Shown here: one piece after another, positions 3-36,293 of the stretch
Layout of the letters: the number at the start of each line of letters is the position of its first letter
Position numbering within the stretch: the first letter of the stretch is position 1
NCBI GenBank assembly: GCA_947476295.1
Contig: CANJQC010000049.1
Location: 1-36,324 of the forward strand
Direction: 5' to 3'
Source: Planctomycetaceae bacterium
Lineage (GTDB): Bacteria; Planctomycetota; Planctomycetia; Planctomycetales; Planctomycetaceae
Length of the DNA: 36,324 nt
The notes under the pieces: generated by a model
What the model saw: only the letters and a program-made list of their open reading frames with translations
What the model was told of the DNA's origin: nothing
Database searches by the model: none
Translations under genes and position numbers: made by a program

Positions 3-737
3 CTGTCATTTGCTGTCCCCCCCTTCGTCGCATTGGCCGTTAGTCTGCTGACTTTGATCAGCCACGCTCAGGATGATCCTCAGGCAGCGCCTTCGGCACC
101 GGCTGCCCGCATCGACGGCACTGGTCCCGGCTGGAGAGCGCTCGGCAAAGACGATTTTGTGAATGTCAACTGTGACGAAAATACATGGACTTTTCCCGAT
201 GGCGAAATTCACTGCACCGGCAGTCCGGTCGGTGTCATGCGGACAAATACGGAACTGACCAATTTTGAACTGGTCGTTGAATGGAGGCATCTGAAATCTG
301 CTGGAAACTCCGGCGTGTTCCTGTGGGCCAATGAACAATCACTTTCAGCGTTGAAAAGAAACGAACTGCCAGCAGGAATAGAGGTTCAGGTATTAGATCA
401 TGGCTACTCGGAAAACTATCGCAAGCAGACCGGCAAGGATCCGGATTGGTTTACGACCAACGGTGACGTGTTTCCAACTGGAAATGCCGACATGACACCG
501 TTTCCTCCTGTAGCTCCCGGCGGAAAACGCAGCTTTCCAAGCAAGAATCTGAGTCACGGAGTCGGCGAATGGAATCACTACTATGTCCGCGCAATTAACG
601 GCGAAGTTCGGTTGTGGGTCAACGGGGAAGAAGTTTCCGGGGGCAAGGACTGCAAACCAGCCAGTGGCTTCCTGTGCCTAGAATCAGAAGGCTCACCGAT
701 CGAGTTTCGCGGCCTGCGAGTTCGCGAACTGCCATAG
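3..737 (+). CDS. Secreted DUF1080 (3-keto-disaccharide hydrolase-like) protein, 5' end cut by window
   Basis: The reading frame is open from the window edge. Residues read before the first possible start (TTG at 33) are hydrophobic and join the following hydrophobic stretch, which ends in SHAQ, so this is probably a signal peptide whose true start lies upstream. The mature part resembles the DUF1080/PF06439 fold, a concanavalin/LamG-like beta sandwich common in planctomycetes. Family hallmarks visible are NFELVVEWR, GNSGVFLWA, GIEVQVLDHG, GEWNHYYVRAINGEVRLWVNG and the C-terminal PIEFRGLRVREL. Some relatives act on 3-keto-sugars or bind glycans; the substrate here cannot be read from sequence. 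It probably acts in the periplasm or outside the cell. The next gene starts 42 bases downstream on the same strand. Family assignment is firm; function is only by family. Confidence 0.82.
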   Translation: MSFAVPPFVALAVSLLTLISHAQDDPQAAPSAPAARIDGTGPGWRALGKDDFVNVNCDENTWTFPDGEIHCTGSPVGVMRTNTELTNFELVVEWRHLKSAGNSGVFLWANEQSLSALKRNELPAGIEVQVLDHGYSENYRKQTGKDPDWFTTNGDVFPTGNADMTPFPPVAPGGKRSFPSKNLSHGVGEWNHYYVRAINGEVRLWVNGEEVSGGKDCKPASGFLCLESEGSPIEFRGLRVRELP

Positions 738-771
738 CATTCTTCCAGCGAACTGCATGGGGCAATATCGT

Positions 772-800
772 ACAAACGAATGAAGGACAAACGAATGAAG
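772..800 (+). repeat. 15-bp tandem duplication carrying two candidate start codons
   Basis: ACAAACGAATGAAG occurs at 772-785 and again at 787-800 (15-base period). Each copy contains an in-frame ATG, at 780 and 795, so the following gene has two starts in identical local context. Neither is preceded by a convincing Shine-Dalgarno site. Confidence 0.85.
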
Positions 801-3098
801 TCATATTCGTTCATGGGACGTCTGCTACTGCTTCTGCTCGTCGTCAGCCACACCTCAGAATGTCGGGCTCAGGCAGCCTCAGGGGACGCAGAGAGCGCAG
901 ACGCAGAACAGGCACAGCGGAGTCTTGCAGACAAGATTCGCAAATCACTGGTCGTCGTTCGAGCGACGGATCGCGCGGGTGATGAATCCGGATTCGGAGC
1001 AGGCTTTGCGGTCGATCAGCCGGGGCTTATTGCTACCGCCAGGCATGTAATCGGTGATGGGCGTGAATTTGTGGTTGAGCTTCCCGATGGCAGTATTGCC
1101 CCGGTCCTTGAGATCTTTGCATCATCCAGCCAATTGGATCTGGCCATCGTGCGGATTGACAACACGTCGCTGCAACCGTTGCCGCTGTCGACGGACGAAG
1201 TTGTCAAAAATCGTCGTCTGATTGCCCTGGGACATCCGCGAGGCAAGCGGAATGAAATGGCCAGCGGTTCGTATTCAGGCAACTATGAAATTGACGGAAT
1301 CGGAATGCTGGAACTGGCGATGCCCATCGAACCAGGCAACAGCGGCGGTCCGGTACTCACAACTGACGGTCAGGTCGTCGGATTGGTCACGATGAAATCA
1401 ACTGTGAAGAACAGCGTTGGCTACGCTCTGTCTGCAAAACTTATTCGGCAAATGATCGACGATCCAAACCCTGTGCCGCTCGCTCGCTGGAAAACGATCG
1501 GCACGCTTGATGCTCGGCTCTGGAAGCCAGTGTTCGGAGCCGAATGGAAGCAGCGATCCGGCCGAATTATTGTGAGCGGTCCTGGTACGTCGTTTGGCGG
1601 TCGGACATTGTGCGTGCGTCAAAGCCCGTGTCCGGAGGTTCCGTTTGATCTGAAAGTGGACGCGAAATTGGGCGACGAACAAGGCGCTGCGGGGCTGATC
1701 TTTCATTCTGACGGTGGAGACCGGCACTATGGTTTTTATCCCAGCGCTGGAAATATGCGACTCACTTGCTTCGATGGCCCCGATGTCGGGTCATGGACAA
1801 TCCTGCATAACGAACCACATGCTGCGTATCGATCTCAGGACTGGAACACTTTGATGGTGCGAATTCATGCGGATCATTTTGAATGCTTTCTTAATGGTGA
1901 AAAGGTAGTCGAATCGCGTGACAACGTCGTTCCGCATGGGGCGATTGGGCTAGCGGCTTTTCGAAGCACATCTGCAGAATTTCGGCGATTCCAGACTGGA
2001 GCGAACCTGCTTCCGATGCCGCTGGATGATGATGCTCAACTCGCATTGAGGGACATTGTCGCACGCGTCCGTCCGAATCGTCCATCTGGTCCGGACGCTG
2101 TCGTAGACCTGCTTCCATTCAGCGAACAGGCAGCGGACTCTTTATCCGCTGAAGCCGACAGAATGGAGGGCCGAGCGAAGCGTCTGCGACAACTGGCCGT
2201 CGAAGTCCATGAGTCTTCGCTTCGAGCACAGCTTGCCAAAGTACTCGGTCTGCCAGACACTGCGGGTGATGACAACGCTGATGGTGCGGGTCTCGATCAC
2301 GGATCACTGCTACGAGCGGCGTTGTTGATCGCGCGGATGGACAATGCTGACGTCGATGTAGAGGCGTACGTTGATCGCGTTCAGCAAATGGCCGACGAGA
2401 TTCGTGGTGTTCTGCCGGAAGGTGCCGACGAAGCCACGCGGCTTGCTGCCATGGACCGACATTTATTCGAAGAACTGGGCGTTCACGGAAGTCGATTTGA
2501 ATACTACACCCGTGCCAACAGCTACATCAACGAAGTGATTGAAGACCGTGAGGGACTTCCGATCACGCTGTCAGTCCTTTACATCGACATCGGCCGCCGA
2601 CTGAATCTGAGCATTCAGGGGATCGGTCTGCCGGGACACTTCGTCGTGCAATTCGTACCGAATGCTGCGCCGACAGATTCGCAGCTGATCGATCCTTTCG
2701 AACGCGGCAAGCGATTGTCAGAAGTCGATGTGGTTAATCGGCTTACCGAAATGCGCTATCCAAATCTGCCACAGTTTCGAGTTCCCCAAACGACCGTGCA
2801 AATCTGTGAACGCATGCTCGGCAACCTGCTGGGACTGGCAGAACAGGAAAAAGATGACGCCGCTGTCCTTCGGTATCTTGAGACGCTGGTGCTGCTTGTT
2901 CCGACTAGTCCCGAGTACCGCGCGAAACGCTTGGAGATTCGGGCTCGTACGGGCCGACTGACCAACGCCATCGATGACGCTGACTGGTTCTTGGAACATC
3001 AACCGGACGGTATTGACTTCGAACGCCTTCGCGCTCTACGAACGACTCTTGAAGCAGAACTGTCTCGTCAACAGGCAGAAGATGCCGGTGCTAACTGA
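780..3098 (+). CDS. Secreted trypsin-like protease fused to a LamG/DUF1080-like domain and a SirB1-type transglutaminase-like domain
   Basis: This 772-residue multidomain protein starts with a signal peptide (about residues 1-31, hydrophobic run from about 14). Residues about 50-228 are a trypsin-like serine protease of the HtrA/DegP type with a complete triad: His89 (TARHVI), Asp120 (LDLAIV) and Ser188 (GNSGGP). No PDZ domain follows. Residues about 240-405 look like a LamG/DUF1080 beta sandwich (AAGLIFHSDGGDRHYGFY, FECFLNGEKV). Residues about 500-700 match the SirB1/Transglut_core2 family (YINEVIEDREGLPITLSVLY, then LPGHFVVQF and LIDPF), followed by a TPR-like helical tail. The likely location is the periplasm. 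The ATG at 780 or the duplicated one at 795 could start it. Domain calls are good; the physiological target is unknown, and the SirB1 part may be catalytic or a binding module. Confidence 0.85.
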   Translation: MKDKRMKSYSFMGRLLLLLLVVSHTSECRAQAASGDAESADAEQAQRSLADKIRKSLVVVRATDRAGDESGFGAGFAVDQPGLIATARHVIGDGREFVVELPDGSIAPVLEIFASSSQLDLAIVRIDNTSLQPLPLSTDEVVKNRRLIALGHPRGKRNEMASGSYSGNYEIDGIGMLELAMPIEPGNSGGPVLTTDGQVVGLVTMKSTVKNSVGYALSAKLIRQMIDDPNPVPLARWKTIGTLDARLWKPVFGAEWKQRSGRIIVSGPGTSFGGRTLCVRQSPCPEVPFDLKVDAKLGDEQGAAGLIFHSDGGDRHYGFYPSAGNMRLTCFDGPDVGSWTILHNEPHAAYRSQDWNTLMVRIHADHFECFLNGEKVVESRDNVVPHGAIGLAAFRSTSAEFRRFQTGANLLPMPLDDDAQLALRDIVARVRPNRPSGPDAVVDLLPFSEQAADSLSAEADRMEGRAKRLRQLAVEVHESSLRAQLAKVLGLPDTAGDDNADGAGLDHGSLLRAALLIARMDNADVDVEAYVDRVQQMADEIRGVLPEGADEATRLAAMDRHLFEELGVHGSRFEYYTRANSYINEVIEDREGLPITLSVLYIDIGRRLNLSIQGIGLPGHFVVQFVPNAAPTDSQLIDPFERGKRLSEVDVVNRLTEMRYPNLPQFRVPQTTVQICERMLGNLLGLAEQEKDDAAVLRYLETLVLLVPTSPEYRAKRLEIRARTGRLTNAIDDADWFLEHQPDGIDFERLRALRTTLEAELSRQQAEDAGAN

Positions 3099-3343
3099 AA
3101 CCACGGATCAGACTGATCGGACCGAACCGACGGATGTCAGAACGGAACCGGCGTATGGCAAACCGGGTAAATTGCGACGACGCTGCCCGACGATCCGGAT
3201 AATCCGCGCGTGGCGGGGGGCCGATTCGCTGGATCAACTTTGCCGGATATGACGATTCTTCGGAAAGCATGAATTGTGCGAGGCGATGCTCGTTGGGAGC
3301 AATGTTTCTCCCTGTTTGTCGTTCAGCAATTCCGTAAACATCC

Positions 3344-5803
3344 ATGAATCACATTGCCGAACAGCCTGAACACTCTTCAATTGCCGCTCGGATGAGCGAC
3401 ATTGGTAGGTTGTTGGCTGGTTTCCTGCAGAACCGCCGAACTCGCTGCATTCTGAGTTGCGCGGCGATCGTAACGGCCTTTGTGACACTGAACGTGATTC
3501 CGGAATCCCTTGTCTCGGCAGCTCAACTGCGAGCTGATCCGGCTGACAATTCCGGGCTGATGATTGTGCCGCGCAGGGCAGACGTAAGCACAGGGATGAT
3601 CCCGCCGTGGCAGACACCGGCCTCTGCGACCGTTCGCCAGGTGTCGTCGGAATCTGAAGGCCTTCATGGCCGTGTTGATCGATCTGTCTCTGCACCGTCC
3701 AAGGCTGTCTTGCGGCGTCCCGTTCCGCAAGTGCCGCCGCCGTATCGACCTGATGAAACACCAACTCCGAATATTCATTCGATGCCAGCGCATTCAAATG
3801 CTTCCGATGGCATGTCATCTTCCAACGCACCTCACTTTGATGCCCCTGCGCCTCGAATATCGCGTGGTGTCGCAGCGCCGCAGCCGAGTCGTGCAAATTT
3901 TGGCCACGCACCTGGAACATCGGACTTTCGGGCCACCACGGAGTGCGACGCTCCGGCGTGGATAAATCCGTATTATGATCGCACGGCACTAATGCCACAG
4001 GGCCGTGAAAACTCACCCACACCGGCCCCGTCTGTTGTGTTACCAATTGATTACATTGCCTGGTGGGATCCGCTGGTGCGTCAGAGCGCAGGGCTGGCTG
4101 CGAATACATTTCCAGTCGAAGTCTCAACGCTGGTGCAGCAGGCTTTGGCTCATGCGCCACAGGTTCAGGTACTGCAGGCCGATCCGGAAGTACAATATAC
4201 CATTGCGCGTCAGGAGGAGGCGGCATTCGACTGGCGTGCATTCCTTGATGCAAAGTACAGCGACCTCAACGACCCGGTCGGAAACACGTTGACGACCGGC
4301 AATAATGACACCCGCTTTACCGACAACAAAGTGAATTCGCAGGGCGGCTTCAAACGTCGTACCGAATCTGGCGGTGAATTACAGATCGCGCAATCGCTTG
4401 GTCGCCAGTACAACAATTCGGTGTTTCTGCTGCCCAATCCGCAGGCCACATCGCGTCTGGAACTCAGCTTCCGGCAGCCATTGATGAATTCCGCAGGAAC
4501 CGTCTATAACCAGAAGCATATTGTCCTGGCAGGCATCAATTCCAACATTGCCAGCGATGAAACTCTGCAGGAGCTTCAGACACATCTCTTTAGAGTCGCC
4601 GAAGCTTACTGGACACTGTATCGGGCGCGAGCTGAATTCTTTCAGCGTCAAAGACTTCTTCAGTCTGCTCAGAGCGTACTGCAGACACTGGAAGGCCGTA
4701 ATCAGGTTGACGCAATCCCGCGTCAGATCCTGCGGGCGAAAGCTGCTGTGGCGCGAGCGGAATCGCGGATGCAACGCGCTGTCACTGATATCAGGAATGC
4801 CGAATCCCGGTTGCGACTTCTCGTGAATGATCCTTCAATGATTAACAGCGGGCCACTGGAGTTTACGCCCGCGGAATCACCCGCCTCAATGCCGTCTACG
4901 ACCGGATTACGTGAAGCACTGGAAACATCGCTCGTCAATCGGCCGGACATTTCACGCGCGATTCGTCAGATGAGAGCGTCGAGTGTCCGGATCGGTGTCA
5001 GCAAAAACGAGCTTCTGCCGCGTCTTGATTTTCTTGTCACATCGTACGTGGCCGGACTGCAGGGTCGCGCGCAGCTTATCGACTCAATTGGCAATCAGTT
5101 CTCCGACGGTCGTCCCGGGTACACAGTCGGACTGGAATTCGAAGTGCCGCTGGGCAATCGAGCTGCAAAGGCGAAGATGGAACAGCGACAATGGGAACTC
5201 AAACGAGCCATCAGCGAGTTTCGTGTAACCGTAGAGACTTCATTGACGGAAGTAGAGATCGCAAATCGCGAAGTTGACACGGCGTATCGCGACATGCTGG
5301 GAAAATATCAGGCGATGCTCGCTGCACAGAACGAAATCGCCTATCTGCAGGATCGCTTCAATGCTCTGCCGCTGATCGAAGACTCTGGTATGTTGCTGCT
5401 GGAAGATCTGCTCGACGGTTACGAACGCCTGGCCGACGAAGAATCGGCCTTTGTGCAGGCTCAAACAAGCTACGCTCTTTCGATCATCCAGCTTCGGCGC
5501 ACGAACGGAACGCTGATGCGGTCACGTCACGATGCTCCGAAACTAGATCCTGACGAATCGGAATGGATGACGGCCCGCGCCGAACAGACGGCCGAAGAGA
5601 CCGAAGAACGTGCCACGCGAACAGCGAGTTCCAGAAGATCAGAACCGGTCGATGATCAAGGTCGTCCGCCTGCGGCATGGTCACAGCCGCTCGGACCGCG
5701 TTTTGGGAAATCTGGTTCAGTGCATGAGCCGACTCAGCAGGCATCGGTTGTGAAGGCTCCTGTCCGACCTGCGTCATTTGGCGGCCATTCGTTTGGGAAT
5801 TAA
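3344..5803 (+). CDS. TolC-like outer-membrane efflux protein with long disordered N- and C-terminal extensions
   Basis: This 819-residue protein has an N-terminal cytosolic stretch, then a hydrophobic segment at about 36-60 (signal or anchor), then roughly 180 residues rich in Pro, Ser and Ala. The core from about 240 to 720 is an outer-membrane efflux (OEP/TolC) domain. It has long amphipathic helices (EAYWTLYRARAEFFQRQ, AKAAVARAESRMQRAVTDI), the internal repeat expected of the family, and beta-strand segments such as LELSFRQPLMN and YTVGLEFEVPLGNRAAKA. The last ~100 residues are charged and low-complexity. TolC proteins form the outer-membrane exit duct of export systems. Usual length is about 450-500 residues, so the tails are notable. 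No HlyD-type adaptor or inner-membrane pump is adjacent in the window; the next gene on the same strand is SecA-like. No clear Shine-Dalgarno precedes the ATG. Confidence 0.85.
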   Translation: MNHIAEQPEHSSIAARMSDIGRLLAGFLQNRRTRCILSCAAIVTAFVTLNVIPESLVSAAQLRADPADNSGLMIVPRRADVSTGMIPPWQTPASATVRQVSSESEGLHGRVDRSVSAPSKAVLRRPVPQVPPPYRPDETPTPNIHSMPAHSNASDGMSSSNAPHFDAPAPRISRGVAAPQPSRANFGHAPGTSDFRATTECDAPAWINPYYDRTALMPQGRENSPTPAPSVVLPIDYIAWWDPLVRQSAGLAANTFPVEVSTLVQQALAHAPQVQVLQADPEVQYTIARQEEAAFDWRAFLDAKYSDLNDPVGNTLTTGNNDTRFTDNKVNSQGGFKRRTESGGELQIAQSLGRQYNNSVFLLPNPQATSRLELSFRQPLMNSAGTVYNQKHIVLAGINSNIASDETLQELQTHLFRVAEAYWTLYRARAEFFQRQRLLQSAQSVLQTLEGRNQVDAIPRQILRAKAAVARAESRMQRAVTDIRNAESRLRLLVNDPSMINSGPLEFTPAESPASMPSTTGLREALETSLVNRPDISRAIRQMRASSVRIGVSKNELLPRLDFLVTSYVAGLQGRAQLIDSIGNQFSDGRPGYTVGLEFEVPLGNRAAKAKMEQRQWELKRAISEFRVTVETSLTEVEIANREVDTAYRDMLGKYQAMLAAQNEIAYLQDRFNALPLIEDSGMLLLEDLLDGYERLADEESAFVQAQTSYALSIIQLRRTNGTLMRSRHDAPKLDPDESEWMTARAEQTAEETEERATRTASSRRSEPVDDQGRPPAAWSQPLGPRFGKSGSVHEPTQQASVVKAPVRPASFGGHSFGN

Positions 5804-5860
5804 TTGTCGGGTTATGAAACTCCCACTTCGGGGATTGCTCTATTTCGTCACTTCGCCGTT

Positions 5861-5904
5861 TGACTCTCTGAGTCGAGCGTAACAAATTTCGACTCAGAGA
5901 GTCA
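5861..5904. promoter_or_regulatory. Perfect 16-bp inverted repeat made of two palindromes, just before the SecA-like start
   Basis: Arms 5861-5876 and 5889-5904 are perfectly complementary, with a 12-base A/T-rich loop. Each arm also contains the palindrome GACTC-N3-GAGTC (5862-5874 and 5891-5903), with centres 29 bp apart. The right arm ends 7 bases before the ATG at 5912. No T-run follows on the + strand, so it is not a typical terminator for the upstream gene. It could be a paired operator, or an RNA hairpin that controls access to the start codon. The structure is certain; the role is inferred. Confidence 0.75.
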
Positions 5905-5911
5905 AGCTGCC

Positions 5912-7846
5912 ATGTCCGATTCCACACTGACAACAAAACGCCCTCAATCCAGGGCAACACTGCATCCTGCAGCGTTGAATAGATTCTCTCAAACGACTTC
6001 AGCACAGCTGATTCCCCATGTTCGCGCATTGTCGGAATCACTGCAGTCTGCGTCCGAAGCACAGTTGCGGAATGAGGTGGATCTTATCCGCCGCGAAATG
6101 GCGCGAGGTCAATCGCCGAGCGAACCGCATGTGCTGATCTCAGGACTAGCGCTTGCTGCTGAAGCTCTGCGGCGCACTGTGAGCGTGACTCTGTACGACG
6201 TGCAGTTACTGGCCACAATTGCGATGGCACGAAACTGTATTGCTCAGATGCAGACAGGTGAAGGCAAGACCTTTGTGGCGTTGACGGCTGCGCTGCATCT
6301 GTCATTCATCGGTCGTGGAGTTCATGTCATCACGTCGAACGTCTACCTCGCTGAGCGTGACCATAATCTTGCGACAAAGGCAGCATGTTTGCTGGGCGCC
6401 TCTGTTGCTCTGCTGCCCGAACGAGTTGATGCAGCGAAGAAAGCTCCGAGCTATGATGCTGATGTCACGTATGGCACAGCTCATGAATTCGGGCTCGATT
6501 ATCTGCGTGATCAATTGACACTGCGACAGCAATCCCGACTGCGACCTGATGAAAAGCTTCTGGGCAGCCTTCGGCACGATGCCACCTCGCGCCGCATCAC
6601 AATGCAGCGTGGACTGGCGTATGCTGTCGTCGATGACGCTGATAGTGTGTTAATTGACGCCGCCGGATCCCCGCTGGTACTCAGTTTTGGCTCCAACGAC
6701 CGGGCACCGGATGCAGATGTTCATTTGACCGCGAAAGCACTGGCAGAAGTTCTCCAGCCGGATGTTGAGTTCGTGGTGGAGCCGTCAAGCGGTCGAGTCG
6801 CTCTGACGGAATCCGGCGTGCAACGCTGTCACGCGGATGATGTAGCGATCCCGGTGCTGCAACTTGTGAGACCCTGGACCGAGTACGTGCAACAGGCATT
6901 GCGTGCGAAAGTTCTGTTTCGACGCGGCGTGCATTACGTGATAAGGAAAGATGAAGTGCAGATTGTCGATGAAACGACAGAAAAAATCTTTGAAGATCGT
7001 TCGTCGCAGGACGGTTTGCATCAGGCAATAGAAGCGTCACAGGATTTGCCGATCACTGCCGAAAAACAATCCGTCGCGCAAGTCACCAGGCAAAGGTTTT
7101 TCAGACTCTATGAGAATCTTTCCGGTGTGACGGGTACGGCAACCGGATGCGAACAGGAATTGAGTGATTTTTACAATCTGACGGTCGAAGAAATCCCGTT
7201 GCGTGTGCCGTCGCAGCGCGTCGTGCTGCCGACGCGATTTTTCGTGAGCAAAGCGGCGAAGATTCACGCGATCGCTCAGGATGTCATACTTGTGCAGCAA
7301 CTGGGACGGGCGGTGTTGATCGGAACACGGTCAATTCCTGATAGCGAAGCGCTGGCGGATAGGCTGGCTTCACTCAACATCGAGTGTCAACTGCTGAATG
7401 GACTTCAGGACGCAGCTGAGGCTGATATGATCAGCCGTGCCGGACATCCGCGAAGCGTCACCATCGCAACAAATCTTGCCGGGCGCGGAACTAATATTCA
7501 TCTGGATCCTGAAGTGCGGGCGAACGGCGGGCTGCATGTGATTGTCGCCGAGTACCAGAAGTCTTCGCGTATGGACCGACAGCTGATCGCACGTTGTGCG
7601 CGTCAGGGAGACCCCGGGTCGGCTCAAATGTACGCGTCGGCCGAGGATATTTTGATCGCTCTGCATGGCCCGTGGCTGGTAGAATCGCTGCAGCGGGAAG
7701 CGGAAGCAAACGGCGAAGTCGATGCGGATTTTTCTTCGCAGTTGAGACGCATTCAGGCATCGGCAGAACGACAACGGTACGAATCCCGTATCAACATGCT
7801 CCGCCGCGACATTGCCCGCAATTCGCTGCTGAAGCGTGTGAAATGA
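5912..7846 (+). CDS. Short SecA-like motor ATPase lacking most of the helical scaffold region
   Basis: This 644-residue protein matches SecA through the two nucleotide-binding domains and the preprotein cross-linking domain. Visible motifs are Walker A MQTGEGKT (about 113-120), YGTAHEFGLDYLRD (about 187-200), RGVHYVIRKDEVQIVDETT, SDGLHQAIEA-like DGLHQAIEA, LSGVTGTA, TIATNLAGRGTNIHL and ARCARQGDPGS. Differences from housekeeping SecA: the Walker B/DEAD segment is VDDADSVLID instead of VDEVDSILID, so the usual Glu is Asp (residue 242). The chain also ends about 72 residues after the RQGD motif, so most of the helical scaffold with its two-helix finger and the C-terminal zinc tail are absent (true SecA is usually 800-1000 residues). 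It follows the TolC-like gene by 108 bases. It is probably an accessory, SecA-derived motor; a substrate cannot be assigned. Confidence 0.85.
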   Translation: MSDSTLTTKRPQSRATLHPAALNRFSQTTSAQLIPHVRALSESLQSASEAQLRNEVDLIRREMARGQSPSEPHVLISGLALAAEALRRTVSVTLYDVQLLATIAMARNCIAQMQTGEGKTFVALTAALHLSFIGRGVHVITSNVYLAERDHNLATKAACLLGASVALLPERVDAAKKAPSYDADVTYGTAHEFGLDYLRDQLTLRQQSRLRPDEKLLGSLRHDATSRRITMQRGLAYAVVDDADSVLIDAAGSPLVLSFGSNDRAPDADVHLTAKALAEVLQPDVEFVVEPSSGRVALTESGVQRCHADDVAIPVLQLVRPWTEYVQQALRAKVLFRRGVHYVIRKDEVQIVDETTEKIFEDRSSQDGLHQAIEASQDLPITAEKQSVAQVTRQRFFRLYENLSGVTGTATGCEQELSDFYNLTVEEIPLRVPSQRVVLPTRFFVSKAAKIHAIAQDVILVQQLGRAVLIGTRSIPDSEALADRLASLNIECQLLNGLQDAAEADMISRAGHPRSVTIATNLAGRGTNIHLDPEVRANGGLHVIVAEYQKSSRMDRQLIARCARQGDPGSAQMYASAEDILIALHGPWLVESLQREAEANGEVDADFSSQLRRIQASAERQRYESRINMLRRDIARNSLLKRVK

Positions 7847-29869: not shown

Positions 29870-32213
<2,344 letters not shown>

Positions 32214-32290
32214 TCTCGGGCTTGTCCTTGGTCTTTTGTTCATCTGCCGTTATCAGGCATTGTCTTGTCTGAATTCATTTTACATAACAC

Positions 32291-32307
32291 TCCGAGTCAA
32301 ACTCGGA
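32291..32307. promoter_or_regulatory. Small perfect inverted repeat between groEL1 and groES
   Basis: TCCGAGT-CAA-ACTCGGA forms a 7-bp stem with a 3-base loop, 19 bases before the groES start. No T-run follows, so it is more likely a processing, stabilising or regulatory site than a terminator. Confidence 0.4.
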
Positions 32308-32326
32308 ATTCACGGAGCTTACTCGA

Positions 32327-32614
32327 ATGAAAATTAATCCACTTGATGACCGTGTTGTAGTTCGTCCAAACGAAGCTGAAGAGACCACGGCCGGCGGGAT
32401 CGTGTTGCCGGATGCTGCCAAAGAAAAGCAACAGCGTGGCACTGTGATCGCTGTTGGGCCAGGCCGCATGCTGGATAGCGGTGAGCGATCACCGATCAGC
32501 GTCAAAGTTGGCGATCAGGTTCTGTTTGGAAAGTACGGCGGAACAGAAGTTGAAGTAGATGGCGAAGAAGTCAAGATCCTTCGCGAGAGCGATATTCTGG
32601 CGAAGCTTGTGTAA
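32327..32614 (+). CDS. groES: Co-chaperonin GroES
   Basis: This 95-residue protein is a full-length Gro[49 protein letters not shown], then [37 protein letters not shown]. The mobile loop ([11 protein letters not shown], with the hydrophobic IVL triad that contacts GroEL) is intact. It has GGAG 9 bases upstream of the ATG. It lies between two groEL genes, so one GroES may serve both rings. Confidence 0.96.
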
Positions 32615-32631
32615 TTTTCCATGACAGCTCA

Positions 32632-32661
32632 GGCAGGATGTTCGTGTACGGGCGTCCTGTC
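32632..32661 (+). terminator. Possible terminator or attenuator after groES
   Basis: GGCAGGATG (32632-32640) pairs with CGTCCTGTC (32653-32661) using two G-U pairs, with a 12-base loop, then TTTA. It lies 17 bases after the groES stop. The T-run is short, so termination would be partial. Confidence 0.4.
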
Positions 32662-32685
32662 TTTAGCTAAAGTTTTTAAAAACTT
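32661..32685. promoter_or_regulatory. Two overlapping perfect palindromes upstream of groEL2
   Basis: CTTTAGCTAAAG (32661-32672) and AAGTTTTTAAAAACTT (32670-32685) are both perfect palindromes and share three bases. They lie about 60 bases before the groEL2 start, in an otherwise GC-richer context. Possible roles are an operator or an A/T-rich promoter element giving groEL2 its own control. Confidence 0.5.
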
Positions 32686-32742
32686 CACCTCGCATACATC
32701 CCAAATCATTGCAGCGTCTGAACCGCTGAAGGAGCCTTAGTA

Positions 32743-34359
<1,617 letters not shown>

Positions 34360-34427
34360 TGATGTAAAGCAGGCTCATGGGAGGTCCGCTGGAACTGCGT
34401 GATGCCTTGTGATCCTGATCTTGAATC

Positions 34428-34455
34428 TGCGGGGCACCAGCAATGGTGTCCCGCG
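34428..34455 (+). terminator. Strong hairpin between groEL2 and dnaJ
   Basis: A 12-bp stem (34428-34439 with 34444-34455, two G-U pairs) closes a GCAA tetraloop of the GNRA type, followed by TTCGTTTGT. It probably ends or weakens transcription from the chaperonin genes before dnaJ. Confidence 0.6.
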
Positions 34456-34556
34456 TTCGTTTGTAGAGATAACCCTAAATACACATCTGGCGTCGTTTCT
34501 GAGGGCATCCTTTTGCTGTTCAGGCCAGTGACTCACACATTTCTCTCTGGTTTCTG

Positions 34557-35723
34557 ATGATGACAAGTCGGCGTTGCTACTACGAAATTCTCGGCGTGGC
34601 CCGAGTTGCGTCGTCCGAGGAACTAAAAAAGGCGTACAAGAAGCTGGCCTTGAAGTTTCATCCGGACCGCAACCCAGACAACGAAGACGCAATCAATTCG
34701 TTTAAGGAAGCGGCCGAGGCCTTCGAAGTTCTCAGCGATACCGACAAGCGTGCCCGCTACGACCGTCTGGGGCATGCGGGTGTTCGCGGAGCCGCGGGTG
34801 GTGCCGGCTTCCAGGATGTTAACGATATCTTCGGCGCGTTTGGTGATTTGTTCGAAGGTTTTGGTTTTCAGTTCGGCAGCGGAAGTGGCGGTGGCTCTCG
34901 TGGAAGTCGTCGTGCAGGGGCGTCGCGAGGCGAATCGCTGCAGACAAAAATTCGCATTGACTTAACCGAAGCATTTCATGGCTGTAAACGGGAACTTCGC
35001 ATCTCACGGCACGAGGCCTGCGACACCTGCCAGGGTTCAGGCTGCAAGTCGGGAACTTCGCCGATAAAATGTTCCACCTGCGGCGGGCATGGTCAGGTGA
35101 TTCAGGCTCAGGGATTCTTCAAATTTCAGACAACATGCCCGGCGTGCAAAGGTCGCGGGACCGTGGTAAAGAACTCCTGTCAATCATGCAACGGCCAGGG
35201 CCGGATGCTGAAGGAAGTGACACGGGAGATTTCAATTCCCGCAGGAATCGATGCGGGAATGCAAATGTGTCTTCGCGGCGAAGGTGAAGCCGGACTCAAC
35301 GGTGGCCCGCGCGGCGATCTGTTCGTTGATGTTGATGTCAAGAAACATGCCCTCTTTCAGCGCGAAGGACAGGATCTTATGTACCGGCTGCCGATCACGT
35401 TTGGTCAGGCAGCACTGGGTGCGGAAATTGAGATTCCGACGCTGAAAGGTCCTGAGACATTAAAAATAAAACCGGGGACGCAGCCGGGCGAAGTAAATCG
35501 ACTACGGGGACTCGGAATGCCGGATCCACGCGGCGGAAACGGACGACCAGGTGATCTGCTGGTCGAAATTCAGGTCGAGGTGCCGCGAAATCTATCCACG
35601 GAGCAGGAAGAACTGCTGCGCGAACTCTCCGATCTCGACCACAAAGACGTGATGCCTCACAGCAAATCGTTCTTCAAAAAAGTGAAACAGTTCTTTTCGG
35701 GGCAGGAAGAGATAGAAGAATAA
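34557..35723 (+). CDS. dnaJ: Chaperone DnaJ (type I Hsp40)
   Basis: This 388-residue protein has a J domain ([33 protein letters not shown] with HPD), a Gly/Phe-rich linker ([22 protein letters not shown]), four zinc-finger CxxCxGxG repeats ([33 protein letters not shown]), and the C-terminal substrate-binding domains ending in a helical dimerisation tail. It stimulates DnaK ATPase and delivers clients to it. Both adjacent ATGs (34557 and 34560) are possible starts. grpE follows after 9 bases; dnaK is not in the window. Confidence 0.96.
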
Positions 35724-35732
35724 GGTTTATTC

Positions 35733-36293
35733 ATGACACAGGCAGAACCAAACTTAAATAACCCTCAACAATCAGCCTCGGCATCCGGCGAATCGGCCGC
35801 TGATGCATTGGCACAGGATTCAGGGTCTCCGCTCGTCAAAGCCGAGATGCAGTCAAAGATTGATGACCTGCAGTTACGCATCATCCGGATGCAGGCCGAT
35901 ACGGAGAATTTTCGTCGTCGAATTCAGCGAGAACAGGATGATGCCCGTAAATTCGAATCACTGCGACTTCTGCGTGACATGCTTCCCGGACTCGATGGAC
36001 TCAATCGCGCCATCAGCAGTGCGGACCAGACGGGCGATATGCAGACGCTGCTCGACGGTATTAAGATGGTGGCTCAGCAGTTTCGTGACACTCTTAAAGC
36101 TCACGCGGCGGAACCGATTGACGCACTCGGAAAACCATTTGACCCCAATCTGCACGAAGCACTGACTCAGATTCCATCCGCTGAACACGAACCGATGACG
36201 GTTCTGCAGGTTGTGGAAATGGGTTACCGGCTGCATGATCGGGTTGTCAGGCCAACACGAGTGATTGTCTCCTGTGCTGCGCCAGAGGCGTAG
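35733..36293 (+). CDS. grpE: Nucleotide exchange factor GrpE
   Basis: This 186-residue protein has a disordered acidic N-terminus (about 1-35), a long coiled-coil helix (KAEMQSKIDDLQLRIIRMQADTENFRRRIQREQDDARKF), and the beta-rich head with IDALGKPFDPNLHEALTQIPSAEHEPMTVLQVVEMGYRLHDRVVRPTRVIVS, the GrpE signature. It releases ADP from DnaK. It starts 9 bases after the dnaJ stop and is presumably translated from the same transcript. Confidence 0.95.
   Translation: MTQAEPNLNNPQQSASASGESAADALAQDSGSPLVKAEMQSKIDDLQLRIIRMQADTENFRRRIQREQDDARKFESLRLLRDMLPGLDGLNRAISSADQTGDMQTLLDGIKMVAQQFRDTLKAHAAEPIDALGKPFDPNLHEALTQIPSAEHEPMTVLQVVEMGYRLHDRVVRPTRVIVSCAAPEA

Follow-up and report, generated by a model that had tools for sequence, protein, structure and literature searches.

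Secondary SecA_DEAD proteins in which the SecA_SW region is wholly or mostly missing were described from planctomycetes and verrucomicrobia by Kamneva, Poudel and Ward in 2015 (PMC4452313). Their genes adjoin those for HlyD, GAF/HlyD and M50/HlyD proteins and, in some loci, an outer-membrane efflux protein (OEP) duct (PMC4452313). The authors suggested that the SecA-like protein is the ATPase supply and the M50 protein the membrane pore, proposed no cargo, and described what the system does biologically as "completely unknown" (PMC4452313). We analyzed a 36,324-nucleotide window of a Planctomycetaceae genome (G000), the whole stretch of DNA considered here, and found a motor gene of this kind, with SecA_DEAD present, SecA_SW absent, and an OEP duct adjoining as in some of the published loci. 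The motor gene has its orthologs within such modules. Unlike the published modules, the window keeps duct and motor only, with three catalytic-motif changes in the motor, and G000 is without the HlyD, GAF/HlyD and M50/HlyD genes of a complete module. A sequence-only reading of this DNA had seen here an outer-membrane duct with a secondary SecA motor tied to it, which would be a new arrangement. The tie is supported by conservation of the pair in the genus, in the family, and in other phyla, but the arrangement had been in print since 2015.

The locus resembles the type I secretion system (HlyB-HlyD-TolC) in its TolC-like duct and in the HlyD adaptors of its relatives, and differs in having no ABC transporter, a SecA-derived motor, and an M50-like inner-membrane protein. 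A type I system calls for an ABC transporter with HlyD and TolC; the Pfam scan of window genes 33-7846 found no ABC transporter or HlyD domain among them, which speaks against this membership. Accessory SecA2 proteins of Gram-positive bacteria partner with SecYEG or SecY2. The window motor is likewise a second SecA-derived motor besides a canonical one, but the C. difficile SecA2 structures run to 781-786 aa, and the window motor, besides being shorter, has no wing or two-helix finger and is paired with a duct. E. coli SecA-N68 (5k9t), a laboratory fragment, was a Foldseek match truncated at a similar place in the SecA C-terminus, while the window copy occurs naturally and has gene neighbors of its own. 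The features of the locus are as follows.

3344-5803, + strand: TolC-like OEP, 819 aa, gene 1 of the ancestral operon (Pfam OEP 1.8e-19; orthologs directly upstream of SecA in relatives)
5860-5905, unstranded: perfect inverted repeat with 17-bp exact arms at 5860-5876 and 5889-5905, about 20 paired bases (fold z-score -4.66)
5912-7846, + strand: secondary SecA_DEAD-type motor, 644 aa, without scaffold tail, wing or two-helix finger (ORF, Pfam, profile alignment, AlphaFold2/Foldseek)
6257-6271, + strand: Walker A GEGKT, residues 116-120, intact
6632-6643, + strand: Walker B/DEAD motif DDAD, residues 241-244, with E242D private to the window copy (Glu in 80/80 other SecA-like loci)
7493-7495, + strand: motif V D528N, private to the window copy (77 Asp and 3 His in the 80 other SecA-like loci)
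7589-7591, + strand: motif VI G560A, private to the window copy (Gly in 79/79 other aligned loci)

The motor ORF begins with ATG and has zero internal stops. Pfam matched SecA_DEAD (PF07517, 2.2e-75), P-loop_SecA (1e-37) and SecA_PP_bind (5e-21) in the 644-aa protein, with no match to SecA_SW, and in profile alignments against solved SecA chains the last aligned residue was ~606 of about 780, before the wing and two-helix finger. The protein thus keeps the two nucleotide-binding domains along with the preprotein cross-linking domain and lacks the wing and two-helix finger, in line with the sequence-only reading, which had most of the helical scaffold/two-helix finger missing. That reading placed the C-terminus about 72 residues past RQGDPGS; the chain does end soon after this motif, with an exact count of 74. 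The AlphaFold2 model of the protein alone (mean pLDDT 80.9) matched the SecA fold in Foldseek, where SecY-engaged SecA ranked top by query-normalized TM-score (6itc 0.82, 5eul 0.80). The Asp in place of the DEAD-type Glu (VDDADSVLID) is real. As a trait of the family, adaptive or otherwise, it was rejected, since it is private to the window copy. Having changed its catalytic Glu as well as two further motif residues that are (nearly) invariant elsewhere, the window motor would be expected to have weak or no coupled ATPase.

The 108-base gap between the two genes, as given by the sequence-only reading, was confirmed. In several relatives (G004, G005, G013, L110, L117) duct and SecA are a few bases apart or overlapping. 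The inverted repeat within the window's spacer is a single copy in the genome, and 6 bases separate its end from the SecA start. Its right arm is ancestral, being the sole arm present in G001, and the left arm is new in the window lineage. The repeat could block translation of SecA.

A frameshift or assembly error could have deprived an ordinary SecA of its C-terminus and would account for a protein shorter than canonical SecA, but we rejected this reading and consider its chance negligible. Full-length orthologs in the genus and family stop within about 20 residues of the window SecA end (the G005 ortholog is cut by a contig end), 57/81 SecA-like loci fetched across phyla have a short tail, and G000 holds a separate full-length SecA on contig C87. 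Profile searches matched SecA domains at scores below every curated cut-off: 470 bits against 800 for canonical SecA (TIGR00963), and 457/1085, 386/930, 347/725 and 316/1100 (score/cut-off) for the SecA2 models. The protein might instead be an accessory SecA2 that uses the ordinary SecYEG channel, with the adjoining duct incidental. SecA2 of C. difficile is among its closest solved relatives and the SecA2 models return low E-values, but scores so far under the cut-offs, the missing wing and two-helix finger, and a duct-SecA pairing found across phyla make this improbable. In the tree, which came with a long-branch warning, window-type SecA orthologs separated from canonical SecA as a clade with 100/100 support, while canonical SecA grouped with other short paralogs. 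G000 has a second short SecA on contig C20, 37% identical to the window SecA and with intact motifs. Downstream genes at other short-SecA loci (G027 and G001 C50) gave no partner families.

Neighborhood comparison showed that the duct-SecA pair is conserved, which removes the sequence-only reading's concern that relatives might lack it. OEP orthologs lie directly upstream of SecA in eight genomes (G001, G004, G005, G006, G013, G015, G022 and G023). In G023, from the same family, the gene order is OEP, SecA, HlyD, GAF/HlyD-type and M50/HlyD. The same contiguous five-gene order occurs in L116, L117, L119, L121, L122, L124 and L126, whose hosts include Planctomycetes bacterium CA13, Rhodopirellula rubra, Aporhodopirellula aestuarii, Pirellulaceae and two Verrucomicrobia. 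Within the window's genus, HlyD, GAF/HlyD and M50/HlyD lie together on a contig separate from SecA (G004, G005, G006, G013, G015 and G017). The M50 partners kept HExxH, most kept the second motif N..NP..DG, and all that were checked had at least 4 hydrophobic segments. A PqqD-like peptide-binding domain at the M50 partner N-terminus was rejected as a sub-threshold match in one paralog only (18.2 vs 23.4 bits).

The sequence-only reading saw no adaptor or inner-membrane channel. This holds for the window, and the dedicated genes are missing from its genome as well; in relatives the three genes follow SecA. Dedicated-type HlyD, GAF/HlyD and M50/HlyD genes were absent from G000 (99% complete), G001 (100%) and G012 (99%), three near-complete draft genomes, the G000 assembly comprising 252 contigs. 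These three genes supply the adaptor and the inner-membrane protein that the window lacks, and they have been lost in G000 and in its two closest relatives, G001 and G012. Because these genomes form one clade (99/97 support) with G013, whose SecA ortholog has intact motifs, as sister, a single loss suffices. Across the family, SecA and M50 co-occurred in 37 genomes, with SecA only in 5 and M50 only in 10 (Fisher p 7e-23, relatedness ignored; the family search covered 170 genomes and the Fisher tests took 171). The SecA ortholog of G006 (L009 1450-3399, G006:C364) has one in-frame TAA despite the presence of partner genes, either a recent mutation or an assembly error. The M50 partner gene at G055:C54:21419-23377 has several stop codons, and this SecA was not found in G055; the M50 gene at G087:C457:57212-58699 has one. 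The stop codons in these two M50 genes suggest more independent losses of the system.

Rates of evolution set the orphaned pair apart. SecA dN/dS was 0.200 in the G000/G001/G012 clade vs 0.078 elsewhere (2dlnL 36.0; 45.0 minus two distant outgroups), and duct dN/dS was 0.222 vs 0.116 (2dlnL 18.1), whereas the C20 short SecA paralog, as a control, had 0.045 in the clade vs 0.067 elsewhere. These values come from a purpose-written branch codon model with the foreground picked after the loss was seen and with synonymous sites partly saturated. The window tip alone (0.156) did not differ from background (p 0.51). At 119 positions invariant in other SecA proteins, G000, G001 and G012 deviated at 24, 28 and 29, compared with 13-17 in orthologs outside the clade. 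In G012 the SecA P-loop is broken (GEGKP for GEGKT) and an 8-residue segment is deleted, and the duct gene is cleanly deleted, such that the window's pre-duct spacer directly precedes SecA. SecA and duct in this clade thus appear to be under relaxed constraint. Some constraint seemingly persists, or did until recently, because dN/dS stays far under 1 and no stop or frameshift interrupts the reading frame. The clade can be viewed as a natural loss experiment, in which motor and duct lose constraint after partner and cargo loss and a paralogous short SecA does not.

The candidate cargo, a giant protein of surface type, is often encoded beside the operon. A giant gene is divergent from the adjoining duct in G004, G005, G006 and G015 (complete at 3018 aa in G005), and a like giant gene occupies the equivalent place in CA13, R. 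rubra, Aporhodopirellula and L126. These genes carry DUF4347, and the copies read further add cadherin-like, bacterial Ig and laminin-G domains. Among their first 70 residues, most of the proteins have an LE[P/D/E]R-x-L[L/M/F] motif (LEPR-XLL, NF012209); most also showed no strong hydrophobic signal peptide in a simple hydropathy scan, which is not a signal-peptide predictor. We rejected LEPR-XLL as an exporter-specific signal, since it is unspecific and also occurs in G007 and G010, which have no copy of this SecA. DUF4347 was present in 37/37 genomes with SecA and M50, 7/10 with M50 only, 1/5 with SecA only, and 10/~118 with neither; by genus, it was present in 13/13 genera with both and 10/45 others. 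Of 85 DUF4347 loci, 23 lay no more than 12 kb from this SecA or M50, a stretch that makes up little of a 4-9 Mb genome. No DUF4347 genes were found in G000, G001, G012 or G022. A search of open-access papers connecting the module to DUF4347 or LEPR-XLL returned nothing beyond PMC4452313. Relative to the searched literature, the proposed link to a DUF4347 cargo is new, and so is the reading of the window pair as orphaned and decaying. For a module known since 2015 without a function, the tight co-occurrence with DUF4347 giants, their proximity in the genome, and the disappearance of both from one clade point to a specific, testable cargo.

The complete machine would consist of duct, SecA-type motor, HlyD, GAF/HlyD and a site-2-protease-like M50/HlyD protein. 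The shortened motor would take up an unfolded polypeptide and hand it to M50/HlyD, a polytopic membrane protein that would stand in for SecYEG; HlyD-domain proteins would bridge the periplasm, and a TolC-like trimer would form the exit. The likely cargo would be the LEPR-XLL/DUF4347/cadherin/laminin-G giant, whose gene often stands next to the operon in divergent orientation. The window lineage has lost all three partners together with the DUF4347 genes for the likely cargo, most simply in one event, and the remaining duct and motor evolve under relaxed selection. Our main reading, to which we assign a probability of about two-thirds, is that the window pair is a decaying remnant of such a SecA-powered, type-I-like five-gene exporter of giant surface proteins, its partners and DUF4347 cargo gone and its duct and motor relaxed. 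More tentatively, and with slightly less than even confidence, we propose that the complete operon is a SecY- and ABC-independent, SecA-powered route across both membranes dedicated to LEPR-XLL/DUF4347 giants without a classical signal peptide, and that the window represents decay after cargo loss. If this is right, export driven by a SecA motor can dispense with SecY and run through a TolC duct and a membrane protein of site-2-protease type.

Given a dN/dS that remains far under 1, the main rival to decay is that the pair is still a working exporter that has switched to the adaptors and M50 proteins of paralogous modules. G000 does have candidates, with HlyD and M50 on C51, GAF-HlyD, HlyD and OEP on C95, and another M50 on C138. 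These paralogs are only about 22-31% identical to the dedicated partners, however, and at least the C51-type M50 has genus-wide counterparts, even in genomes without this SecA. The catalytic motifs are also changing and the duct is lost in G012, and we regard continued export by this means as unlikely. In G004, a second type of giant gene (L055 1-8844, G004:C112; at least 2948 aa) adjoins a C20-type short SecA and has PPC and matrixin-like domains in the scanned stretch; from its location it is possibly the cargo of a paralogous module.

Other window genes were also noted. A trypsin-like/transglutaminase-core/TPR protein is encoded at 780-3098, 5' of the duct, in the place occupied by the giant DUF4347 gene in genus relatives, and is syntenic and 76-79% identical in G001 and G012. 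At 30513-36293, translations indicate a tandem pair of GroEL-like genes followed by DnaJ-like and GrpE-like genes.
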